Positions 58,616 to 64,000 of a DNA stretch of 64,000 nt are shown piece after piece; within the stretch, counting starts at the first letter, position 1, and each line of letters starts with the position of its first letter. Source of the stretch: Paracoccaceae bacterium (GTDB taxonomy: Bacteria; Pseudomonadota; Alphaproteobacteria; Rhodobacterales; Rhodobacteraceae); NCBI GenBank assembly GCA_014654775.1, contig JACVZW010000075.1, positions 124,001 through 188,000 on the forward strand, given 5' to 3'. The translations under genes and the position numbers were made by a program. The notes beneath the pieces are model-generated. The model was not told where the DNA came from and searched no databases. It saw only the letters and a list, made by a program, of their open reading frames with translations.

Positions 58616-59027
58616 GGGGGCGATCCTGTGGAAACTCCGCTTTTGTTCCTGCGGCTGGACTGTGTCGTATGTCCCTTGCGCTGGTGGCCACCAGACGGGA
58701 CTGTGGATGTTTCGTCGACCCGGGGAAAATTGTCCACATGTGTGCGACAGTGCCAAACTGGGCGGGAGAACCTGTTGTCCCGTCCTTCATTGTGATCGGC
58801 TGTGGGTGTTTCTGTCGAATGATTTTCGCATAATCTATTGTTTTTATTCTGATTTACTCGAATCTTTCAGAGAGGTCTCAAGTTATCCTAGCTTGATCCA
58901 CAGGTCTTTCACTGTGGAAGGAATCCGGGAGGAACCGTGAAATTCCGCTTTCCACAGGCCCTGCATCATCATTCTCTTTTCTAATCTTATTGTTAAGAAG
59001 AAGAGGGTTACGAACGGGGATGGCAAG
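58616..59027. other. oriC: Probable chromosomal replication origin (oriC)
   Basis: A 412-bp gap with no gene, visibly more AT-rich than its surroundings, especially 58815-58870 and 58970-59000. DnaA-box-like 9-mers: TTGTCCACA at 58730-58738 and TGATCCACA at 58894-58902 (one mismatch each to TTATCCACA), TGTGGATGT at 58702-58710, TGTGGAAAC at 58627-58635 and CTTTCCACA at 58948-58956 (two mismatches each). GANTC sites occur at 58859-58864 and 58921-58925. Flanking genes point away on both sides (maf block minus, hemJ-rho-mnmE-mnmG plus), and this gene neighbourhood is the origin region in other alphaproteobacteria. Confidence 0.75.
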
Positions 59028-59477: not shown

Positions 59478-59614
59478 CCGTTCACCGCTATCGTTGACTT
59501 TCGCGCCCGTCCTTCGTATCTGCCAAGATGCAGGGCCGTCCGGTCCAAGGCATTTTCCACCTGACCGACCGACGTGAACACGCCCAAGGCGTGCACCTTC
59601 AGGATTTTCTGATC

Positions 59615-60886
59615 ATGACAACCGAACGCCTGAACCTCTCCGACCTCAAGGCAAAGACGCCTGCCGATCTTTTGGCTATGGCGGAAGAGTGGGAGATTGA
59701 GAACGCGCCTTCCATGCGGAAGGGCGAGATGATGTTCCAGATTTTGAAGGAACATGCTGAGGAAGGGTTCGAGATCGGCGGGGACGGCGTTCTTGAAGTG
59801 CTGCAGGACGGTTTTGGCTTTCTTCGGAGCCCGGAGGCGAACTACCTGCCAGGTCCAGATGACATTTATGTAAGCCCGGAGATGATACGCCAGTTTTCCC
59901 TGCGGACGGGGGATTCCATCGAAGGCGTGATTCAAGCTCCGCGAGAGAATGAGCGGTATTTCAGCCTCGTTAAGGCAACGAAAATCAATTTTGACGACCC
60001 GGAGAAAGCCCGTCACAAGGTGCATTTCGATAACCTTACGCCGCTTTATCCAGACGAGCGGCTGAAGATGGAGATCGAGGATCCGACCATCAAGGACCGC
60101 TCTGCACGGATCATCGATCTTGTCTGCCCGATCGGGAAAGGACAGCGCGCCCTGATCGTTGCACCGCCGCGGACAGGCAAGACCGTTCTGCTACAGAACA
60201 TCGCGCATTCGATCGAAAAGAATCATCCGGAATGCTATCTTATCGTCCTGCTGATCGATGAGCGGCCGGAAGAAGTGACCGACATGCAGAGGTCGGTGAA
60301 AGGAGAGGTCGTTTCGTCGACCTTCGATGAACCGGCGACACGGCATGTGGCCGTTGCGGAAATGGTCATCGAGAAGGCCAAGCGTCTTGTGGAGCACAAG
60401 CGGGATGTTGTGATCCTTCTCGACTCTATCACTCGTCTTGGCAGGGCCTTCAATACAGTGGTGCCGTCCTCTGGCAAGGTTCTGACCGGTGGCGTCGATG
60501 CAAATGCCCTGCAGCGGCCGAAGCGGTTCTTTGGCGCGGCGCGGAATATCGAGGAGGGTGGATCGCTTACCATCATTGCAACGGCGCTGATCGATACCGG
60601 CAGCAGGATGGATGAAGTCATTTTCGAAGAGTTCAAGGGAACGGGTAACAGCGAGATTGTGCTGGACCGGAAGGTCGCAGATAAGCGCGTCTTCCCTGCG
60701 ATTGACATTCTGAAGTCGGGAACTCGAAAAGAAGACCTTTTGGTCGACAAGATCGACCTGCAGAAGACCTATGTCCTGCGCAGAATCCTGAACCCGATGG
60801 GGACGACCGATGCGATCGAGTTCCTTCTGTCGAAGCTGAAGCAAACCAAGACAAATTCGGAGTTCTTCGATTCAATGAACACATAA
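59615..60886 (+). CDS. rho: Transcription termination factor Rho
   Basis: A 423-residue hexameric RNA helicase. The N-terminal RNA-binding domain ([15 protein letters not shown], then the cold-shock-like part with [22 protein letters not shown]) is followed by the P-loop [16 protein letters not shown] (about 183), [16 protein letters not shown] and the Q/R-loop region [23 protein letters not shown] 59615 has AGGA upstream. Gene order rho-mnmE-mnmG is typical near the alphaproteobacterial origin. Confidence 0.96.
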
Positions 60887-60913: not shown

Positions 60914-62188
60914 ATGGACACGATCTATGCCTTGGCCAGTGCTCGTGGCAAGGCGGGTGTAGCTGTACTGCGTTTGTCCGGGCCCCGGTCGCATGAGGCA
61001 GTGGTGGCCTTCGCGGGCGCCTGTCCTGAACCCCGTATCGCTTCGCTTAGAACGCTTCGTTGGCAGGGGGAGGTCCTAGATCAGGCGCTGGTCGTGGTCT
61101 TTTCGGAGGGGCGCAGCTTTACAGGTGAAGCGTCCGCGGAGTTTCATCTTCATGGCTCGCAGGCAGTGATCCAGTCTGTTCTTCGTGCGCTGGGCGAGAT
61201 GCCGGGGCTGCGATTGGCTGAGGCCGGGGAGTTCACACGACGGGCGTTGGAGAATGGTCGGCTTGATCTGACGCAAGTTGAAGGGCTAGCCGATCTTATC
61301 GATGCCGAGACGGAAGCCCAGCGTCGACAGGCACAGCGGGTCTTGTCGGGCGCAGTCGGTCGGAAGGCGGAGTCCTGGCGAGGGCGGCTGATCCGCGCGG
61401 CGGCATTGATCGAGGCCACAATCGACTTTGCGGATGAAGATGTGCCGGTGGATGTTGGGCCGGAAGTAATCGCCCTGATTGATGCGGTGGCAGGAGAACT
61501 CAAGTCCGAGATGGCGGGGAGCAAGGCAGCGGAGCGTATACGGGACGGTTTCGAAGTGGCAATCGTTGGGGCACCGAATGCCGGAAAGTCGACCCTTCTC
61601 AATGCTTTGGCAGGACGTGAAGCTGCGATAACCTCGGAGATCGCAGGGACGACCCGGGACGTGATCGAGGTCCGGATGAGCATAGATGGTTTAGCTGTGA
61701 CGATTCTGGATACAGCAGGCCTTCGCGAAACGTCGGATGTTGTAGAACGCATGGGGGTGGATCTGGCACTGCGGCGTGCCAGAGACGCTGATCTTCGCGT
61801 GTTCCTGATGAGTGATGAACCTATGCCAGAACTGAGCCCGCTGACCGACGACATCGTGGTACGAGGGAAGGCTGATCTCGGGGGGCAAGGCGTTTCCGGA
61901 TTGACGGGGCAAGGTGTGGCAAGCTTGCTTGAGGACATCGGATCGCGTCTGGGTCAGCGTGTTGCGGGTGCTGCCACCGTCACGAGAGAGCGGCATCGCC
62001 TCGCTGTGGAACGTGCGATCAGGTCTTTGGAATCGGCGAGGCTTGAGGTAGAGAGGGGCGCAGTACGGGCGGAGATCGCTGCAGACGATCTGCGGGTCGC
62101 GATCAGGGCGCTCGAGTCTCTGGTCGGGAGGGTCGACGTTGAGTCCCTTTTGGACGAGATCTTCTCGAGTTTCTGCATTGGGAAATGA
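60914..62188 (+). CDS. mnmE: tRNA modification GTPase MnmE
   Basis: A 424-residue GTPase acting with MnmG to make 5-(carboxy)aminomethyl-uridine at tRNA wobble U34. N-terminal formyl-THF domain ([21 protein letters not shown]); G domain with P-loop [14 protein letters not shown] (about 217-230), switch [10 protein letters not shown] and DTAGLRET; C-terminal CIGK at 421-424, where Cys is essential. It overlaps mnmG by ATGA. Confidence 0.96.
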
Positions 62189-64000
62189 GGGTGTTTCACG
62201 TGAAACAGTTCGATGTGATTGTCATTGGTGGTGGGCATGCGGGTAGCGAGGCAGCGGCTGTAGCAGCGCGTATGGGTGCTGAAACGGCGCTGGTGACCCT
62301 GCGTGCAGACGCGATCGGCGTGATGTCCTGCAACCCGGCAATTGGCGGTCTAGGCAAGGGGCATCTTGTTCGCGAGATTGATGCGCTGGATGGCGTCATG
62401 GGGCGGGTCGCGGACCGGGCTGGAATTCAGTTCAGGCTTCTTAATCGTCGGAAGGGGCCAGCGGTGCAGGGCCCCCGCGCGCAGGCGGACCGCAAGCTCT
62501 ATCGACTTGCAATGCAGAAGGCACTTGCCCTCCAGCCAAATCTTTCCGTCATCGAGGATGAAGTCGTTGATTTGATTTTAGAAGGCGGGCGTGTTGCAGG
62601 GATTCTCGTGAAAAGCGGCCAGAGCTACCGCGCGCCCTCCGTGGTTTTGACAGCGGGGACTTTTCTGAACGGAGTCATCCATATTGGTGATCAGCGCCGA
62701 CCTGGTGGGCGCGCCGGAGATGCACCTTCCATACCGCTGGCAGAAAGGCTTTTGGATCTGCTGCCGACGCGCGGGCGTCTGAAGACTGGCACGCCTCCGC
62801 GTCTTGATGGCCGCACGATAGATTGGTCACGGCTGGAAAAGCAGCCAGGCGATGAGGAGCCTGTCCTCTTCTCGTTCATGAGCAAAGCCCCAGAGGCACG
62901 GCAGATTTCGTGCGGGATTACGCACACGAACGAAAAGACGCATGACATCGTCAGGGCCAATCTCTCGCGATCTGCGATGTATGGCGGCTTTATAGAGGGT
63001 GTTGGTCCGCGGTACTGCCCCTCAATCGAGGATAAGGTGGTGCGCTTCTCTGAGAAAGAGGGCCATCAGGTGTTTCTGGAGCCCGAGGGCTTGGACGACC
63101 ACACGGTCTATCCCAACGGGATTTCCACATCCCTGCCAGAAGACGTTCAAGAGGCCTATGTTCGGACAATTGCTGGTCTGGAAGGCGTCGTTATCCTTCA
63201 GCCAGGTTACGCAATCGAATACGATTTCTTTGATCCCCGCGAGTTGCGACCATCCCTCGAGACACGTGCGTTGCCGGGGTTGTTCCTTGCTGGGCAAATC
63301 AATGGCACGACCGGGTACGAAGAGGCAGCGGCGCAGGGGCTCGTGGCTGGCTTGAATGCTGCTCGCCTGGCAAAGGATTTGGAGCCGGTCGTTTTCAGTC
63401 GGCGCGACAGCTACATCGGCGTCATGATTGATGATCTTGTTACGCGTGGCGTAACAGAGCCCTATCGGATGTTCACCTCGCGCGCCGAATTCCGTCTTGC
63501 CCTTCGGGCGGATAACGCGGATCAACGGCTTACCCCCATGGGCATGGAAATTGGCTGTGTGTCGGAGGTGCGGCGTCGTCGCTTCGGAGAGAAGATGCAG
63601 GGCATTGCGTCTGCACGGGAAGTGCTTCGTGCTCGAAGACTATCGCCGCGCGAGCTGGCCCCTTACGGCGTCCGGCTGAGTCAGGATGGAGCGCGCCGCG
63701 ACGGCTTCGATGTTCTTTCGCTTGGGGAAGAGGCGCGCCCTGCTGTTGAAGCGATGTTTCCAGAATTTGGGTCGCTTCCCGCAGAAATTCGTGACCAGGT
63801 CGCGACAGATGCCCTTTATTCCCAATACCTTGAACGGCAGGAGTCTGATGCGCGCCTTTTGCAGCGCGAGGAGGCTGCTGTGATCCCGATTGATTTCGAT
63901 TACGATCTGCTTGCCGGCCTTTCGAACGAGTTGACGGCAAAGCTTAAGCGGCAGCAGCCCGCGAATCTTGCACAAGCGGGGCGGATCGAGGGTATGACGC
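62185..64000 (+). CDS. mnmG: tRNA uridine 5-carboxymethylaminomethyl synthase MnmG (5' part)
   Basis: FAD-dependent partner of MnmE, cut by the window end after 605 sense codons (full proteins are about 620-630 residues). The product opens [20 protein letters not shown]; the FAD Rossmann motif [55 protein letters not shown] and [18 protein letters not shown] are present, with [17 protein letters not shown] near the C-terminal part. ATG 62185 overlaps the mnmE stop (ATGA). Codons 3-8 contain a perfect parS sequence. Confidence 0.95.
62192..62207. other. parS: parS centromere site inside mnmG
   Basis: TGTTTCACGTGAAACA, a perfect 16-bp palindrome that matches the bacterial parS consensus for ParB binding. 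It lies within the first codons of mnmG (encoding VFHVKQ) and about 3.4 kb from the probable oriC; parA and parB are expected downstream of mnmG outside the window. Confidence 0.92.

Follow-up and report, generated by a model that had tools for sequence, protein, structure and literature searches.

A conserved parS site that appears to supply the start codon of mnmG in Rhodobacteraceae

Comparison of a 64,000-nucleotide stretch of a Paracoccaceae bacterium genome (the whole stretch is hereafter the window) with about 100 relatives suggests that mnmG takes its start codon from a chromosomal parS site, which keeps this codon as GTG where ATG would be usual. Translation of mnmG very probably starts at the GTG inside the parS palindrome (62200-62202). 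We hold with high confidence that parS became the start region of mnmG in Rhodobacteraceae, with GAGGG lying just 5' of the site, the left half TGTTTCAC serving as the spacer, and the internal GTG serving as the start. The features concerned are as follows (positions in the window, unless a contig is named).

59528-60886, plus strand: rho, as the listed open reading frame, the true start of which may be further in (TIGR00767, E 3.7e-209)
60914-62188, plus strand: mnmE (NF003661, E 9.5e-157)
62187-62191, plus strand: GAGGG, proposed Shine-Dalgarno sequence of mnmG, spaced 8 nt from the internal GTG (family pairing energies)
62192-62207, no strand: parS site 1, a perfect 16-bp palindrome (exact match and family conservation)
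62200-62202, plus strand: internal GTG of parS, at which mnmG is proposed to start (frame, variants, pairing, and locus L168)
62200-64000, plus strand: mnmG from the proposed start, continuing past the window end, with a stop codon that ends at C75:188065 (NCBIfam TIGR00136, E 1.6e-238)
C75:188088-188103 (L003:3589-3604): the other exact parS, located within rsmG and beyond the window end by 87 bases (genome search)

For parS site 1, the sequence TGTTTCACGTGAAACA at 62192-62207 is an exact match to the known palindrome and the sole match in the window at up to three mismatches, for which shuffled windows gave a mean of 0.08 matches. In the host genome (4.5 Mb in 93 contigs), two parS sites were found at up to two mismatches. 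Both are exact and lie on one contig, at C75:186192 and C75:188088, a distance of 1,896 bp. When the pattern was reversed as a control, two places matched with up to two mismatches and none matched exactly. As is expected of chromosomal parS, the copies are few, clustered, and close to parA and parB, which directly follow rsmG. The first-pass annotation had described a perfect consensus parS beside the mnmE/mnmG junction, and both parts hold, the site being exact and separated by three bases from the mnmE stop codon (TGA, 62186-62188). The genome-wide count of the 16-mer that it proposed yielded two exact sites in a genome that is not littered with copies. With parA 2.5 kb and parB 3.3 kb downstream, the feature is, judged by its sequence, a genuine and conserved parS, to which we infer that ParB binds. 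It is one of two chromosomal parS sites at which ParB, whose gene is about 3 kb downstream, is predicted to nucleate.

The host ParB matches the Caulobacter ParB (PDB 6t1f, E 1.8e-71). In the alignment to this structure, it keeps Q162, K171, S172, R173, N178, G201, and R204, and has a serine at the position of G170. The list of parS-contact residues is from PMC7383237. The protein has the residues of a cognate ParB at the contact positions, with R173 and G201 and not the Noc residues. Among the profile matches, those to RsmG and to a ParB/RepB/Spo0J-family protein were above the cut-off, and those to the nucleoid-occlusion model and all ParA-type models were below it. The gene order is rho-mnmE-mnmG-rsmG-parA-parB. 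The mnmE stop codon overlaps an in-frame ATG at 62185, and adjacent genes from mnmG through parB touch or overlap. The first-pass annotation saw in the location a link between chromosome segregation and a tRNA-modification operon, and a regulatory link of this kind would be speculative. The simpler reading of the location is that the site is placed in a gene string that includes mnmE-mnmG and ends with parA-parB.

Conservation of the site was examined among 150 Rhodobacteraceae genomes, including the host. The exact 16-mer is present in 140 of these genomes, and the reversed control is present in none. By hand count, 104 genomes have two exact copies, 18 have one, 17 have three, one has four, and 10 have none. 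MnmG was found in 146 family genomes besides the host, and 100 of these were taken together with the host for comparison of the locus. These 101 loci comprise the handles up to G102, minus G093 (in which mnmG is split between contigs), and include one locus of just 817 bp (L140). The order mnmE-mnmG-rsmG-parA-parB is found in 99 of the 101 loci. The two exceptions are L168, from which parA and parB are missing, and a locus with mnmE-mnmG only, which is necessarily the 817-bp L140. A parS site is located at the mnmG start in 99 of the 101 loci (90 exact, eight with one mismatch, and one with two mismatches), where it begins 35, 38, 41, 47, or 56 nt before the codons for the GGGHAG motif. All five distances leave the internal GTG or ATG in frame with mnmG. 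Among these 99 loci, 10 of the 16 parS positions are invariant. The flanking positions are more variable, except for two G of the ribosome site, which are found at -4 in 79 loci and at -3 in 82 loci (counted before parS). In some family members, a third exact parS was observed in the mnmG-rsmG stretch (L172 at +1547, L179 at +1971, L188 at +1983, and L180 at +2161 from the GGGHAG codons).

In the host, parS site 1 reads on in frame into mnmG. In the proposed mechanism, the ribosome site would lie just before parS, and the left half of the palindrome would remain untranslated as a spacer. Translation would begin at the GTG of the right half and continue with AAA (Lys) and CAN (His/Gln). The start would then be held as GTG, and the spacer frozen together with codons 2 and 3, by selection for ParB binding. 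Escapes, where present, would include a change of the same codon to ATG. Pairing with the anti-Shine-Dalgarno sequence is consistent with this arrangement. Before the internal GTG, the median pairing energy is -6.5 kcal/mol, with 71 of the 99 loci at -5 or below. The corresponding values are -3.5 and seven of 99 before the NTG that straddles the left edge of parS, and the median at 1,960 random in-frame places is -2.5, with 19% reaching -5. The internal start pairs better than the left-edge NTG in 89 loci. Against it, pairing is better before the left-edge NTG in 10 of the 99 loci, and 11 loci are without a clear ribosome-site word. In favor of the internal start, 74 of the 99 loci have no other ATG, GTG, or TTG start further upstream, and in three loci the internal GTG is the sole such codon past the stop. 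The codons that follow are also conserved. Counted from the internal start, codons 1-3 encode VKH in 71 loci, VKQ in 23, MKH in three, and VEH and VKP in one each. Codon 2 is AAA in 97 of the 99 loci, and the remainder of mnmG has 813 AAA versus 1,048 AAG codons.

The strongest alternative, which we nevertheless consider unlikely, is that parS is wholly coding, such that MnmG starts at ATG 62185 or GTG 62191 and carries VFHVKQ, with six residues fixed. Both of these codons are open in frame in the host, a point that counts against the internal start. Overlaps of the ATGA type are a common kind of coupling, and an ATG, GTG, or TTG is found at the left edge of parS in 94 of the 99 loci. However, the remaining five loci have none of these codons, and the left-edge pairing that reaches -5 in seven of 99 loci falls below the 19% of random places. 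At the place of ATG 62185, the family has ATG in only four of 99 loci, and 49 loci have a stop codon there. In addition, L168 starts at the internal codon, and under a wholly coding parS, all seven central transitions at mnmG described below would be Val to Met and none silent. The left-edge codon is GTG in 62 loci, ATG in 24, TTG in eight, CTG in two, and ACG, GGG, and GCG in one each. The parS site does not include the first base of this NTG, which could therefore freely be A. On these comparisons, the left-edge NTG does not appear to be maintained as a start. The annotated residues VFHVKQ are probably wrong, with VFHV likely untranslated and the internal GTG favored by pairing, variants, and L168. 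The associated claim that parS has fixed the N-terminus of MnmG is retained in that the site constrains the mnmG start, and is amended in that a GTG start, a spacer, and residues 2-3 would be fixed instead of VFHVKQ. Similarly, the suggested comparison of MnmG N-termini across Rhodobacteraceae recovered the site in 99 of 101 loci and VKH or VKQ in 94 of 99, and the left-edge start was not kept.

Variants at the central CpG of the palindrome provide a further line of evidence for the internal GTG start. In a set of 394 family genomes, 22 sites with one central-CpG transition were found, distributed over 15 genomes. Seven are at mnmG, eight are at rsmG, and the other seven (L274, L277, L279, L290, L293, L294, and L295) are elsewhere or unassigned and stayed outside the statistical test. 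All seven transitions at mnmG turn the internal GTG into ATG, and the mirror change was not seen. Translation of VFHV would make the mirror change a silent one (CAC to CAT), which should therefore be commoner. At rsmG, one transition has the mnmG-type orientation and seven are mirrored (Fisher p = 0.0014, with counts entered by hand), although this comparison is non-neutral because either central change at rsmG replaces an Arg, by His or by Cys. On the MnmG tree, a quick tree with many open forks, the seven variant rows represent seven changes, of which at least three are forced by well supported branches. Counting against the internal start, GTG is retained at six of the nine mnmG sites that have mismatches in the 101 loci, and ATG is found at three. 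By their placement on this tree, natural escapes of the mnmG start to ATG appear to be repeated.

One genome has lost the site together with the partition genes. In G054 (locus L168), parA-parB are gone from behind rsmG, no ParB match was found in the genome at E 1e-5, and parS is absent at both mnmG and rsmG. At this locus, mnmG begins with ATG AAA CAC at the homologous codon, which is the first start in frame. Three sites with two mismatches are located elsewhere in this genome, versus two for the control pattern. The loss of parAB was seen only in this genome, which is 97% complete, and G054 is the one clear case in which parS and ParB were lost jointly. Genome G063 has neither a ParB nor an MnmG match and is hence uninformative.

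The second parS of the host encodes V-S-R-E-T within rsmG. A parS site (up to two mismatches) is present near the rsmG start in 93 of 100 family loci and 40 of 46 loci from other families of the class Alphaproteobacteria with an rsmG match. It is in the V-S-R-E-T frame at 92 of the 93 family sites and 37 of the 40 class sites, and the peptide is exactly VSRET at 89 and 35 loci, respectively. The rsmG site is more widely spread than the overlap with the mnmG start. Among the seven family and six class loci without parS near the rsmG start, none has VSRET, and one of the loci lacking parS at rsmG (L237) has VPRET instead. In L011-L083, 60 loci have an rsmG match, nearly all of them Gammaproteobacteria by title, and a search of these 60 gave no parS and no VSRET. 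At L125, the match starts too far inside rsmG to judge, and an exact parS is located at +1873.

This second copy also bears on a different alternative, in which the palindrome is maintained for an RNA hairpin controlling translation of mnmG and is not a ParB site. The palindrome can form a 6-bp fold adjoining the start codon, but this fold is weak, at -3.9 kcal/mol. In rsmG, the identical 16-mer is retained clear of the gene start and is read in a different frame. The 16-mer also matches the known parS exactly, is lost in both copies from the genome without detectable ParB, and lies upstream of the start in relatives from the class. A hairpin function is therefore highly improbable, and as the main function it was rejected as weak and not start-specific. 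Finally, the chance that the site is an accidental or merely inherited sequence without function is negligible, with nothing found in its favor and with 0.08 matches expected in the window at up to three mismatches and the exact 16-mer in 140 of 150 genomes versus none for the control.

To place the overlap of parS with the mnmG start in a broader context, 51 loci from other families of the class were compared. These were chosen by hand, mostly by handle order, from 167 genomes with a match (the host and two family members included). In 40 of the 51 loci, parS (up to two mismatches) is located within 310 nt upstream of the GGGHAG codons, and 27 of these 40 have an exact site. With a simple assignment of starts (the nearest in-frame ATG, or else GTG or TTG), mnmG starts with ATG in 47 loci and GTG in three, and one has no assigned start. 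Among 43 pairs of site and start, parS is upstream without overlap in 41, overlapping in one, and downstream in one. Because parS is usually upstream of an ATG start elsewhere in the class, the overlap in Rhodobacteraceae probably arose by loss of the spacer between parS and mnmG, through which parS would have been captured as the start region. At L129, ParB is present and an exact parS is located at -109, clear of the mnmG start. This separate parS counts against the proposed model. It may represent the older state, although the position of L129 on the tree is unsure. L262, from another family of the class, has an exact parS at -53 relative to the GGGHAG codons and in the reading frame of mnmG, which is perhaps an independent overlap of parS with a gene start.

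In Bacillus subtilis, a parS site reportedly lies within the coding sequence of spo0J. That site is said to be in coding sequence, as here, but internal and not over a start codon and spacer. A survey of parS sites was reportedly published by Livny in 2007 (J Bacteriol). No mention of a start codon inside parS was found in the titles and abstract openings of the papers retrieved on parS, and we make no claim that the arrangement is unpublished. According to PMC5815017, parS sites of Caulobacter crescentus are located in genes that are essential or of high fitness cost. The occurrence of parS within genes is already known from this source. The point added here is that parS very probably supplies the mnmG start codon and keeps it GTG, and a start codon inside parS is not mentioned for C. 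crescentus in the passages of that paper considered here. The C. crescentus sites resemble those of the host in being clustered 16-bp palindromes bound by a homologous ParB (PMC5815017). They differ in number, with at least five sites versus two in the host, and their cluster is about 8 kb from the origin (same source). For repABC replicons of Rhodobacterales, PMC9040568 hypothesizes positive selection on the parS sites downstream of repC, even where these fall in coding sequence. This system is from the same bacterial order as the host, but it serves plasmid partition with its own RepB and is not chromosomal.

If the proposed start is correct, the locus would be a clear case of a chromosome function at the DNA level overriding a translation optimum. 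A GTG start would be held by a centromere across most sampled Rhodobacteraceae genera, with natural escapes to ATG, and the trade-off could be tested by a few single-base changes. Gene callers could set the mnmG start too far upstream in Rhodobacteraceae, and neither parS of the host could be deleted without touching mnmG or rsmG. A more tentative extension, which we think has a modest chance at best, is that, in the host and many relatives, the whole chromosomal centromere lies within two genes belonging to the same string as parA and parB, with one parS as the mnmG start region and the other as five RsmG codons. ParB loaded at these sites would occupy DNA between mnmE and parA-parB. A ParB roadblock would then tune transcription of rsmG-parA-parB and the fixed GTG would cap mnmG translation, such that the centromere would set the expression of its own segregation genes.

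Regarding the origin, genes dnaQ-coaE-aroE-maf (minus strand) and hemJ-rho-mnmE-mnmG (plus strand) diverge at about 58.8-59.0 kb of the window, an order that resembles that of the Caulobacter origin region. The divergent gap between maf and hemJ (58757-59027) is a candidate origin by gene order, but the GC skew keeps its sign there. No GC-skew minimum was found within the 209-kb contig of the host, along which the skew is positive nearly throughout. In the complete genome of relative G050, of which 400 kb was read and in which the skew is weak, the lowest skew is at 101.6 kb and parS is at 126.4 kb (25 kb apart). The window has seven DnaA-box matches at up to one mismatch, versus 4.5 expected, which gives no guide to the origin. 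Elsewhere in the host genome, four more weak ParB-like matches were observed, of which three are close together (G000:C81:5497-11734) and one is at G000:C4:9689-10153. These matches are perhaps plasmid partition genes.
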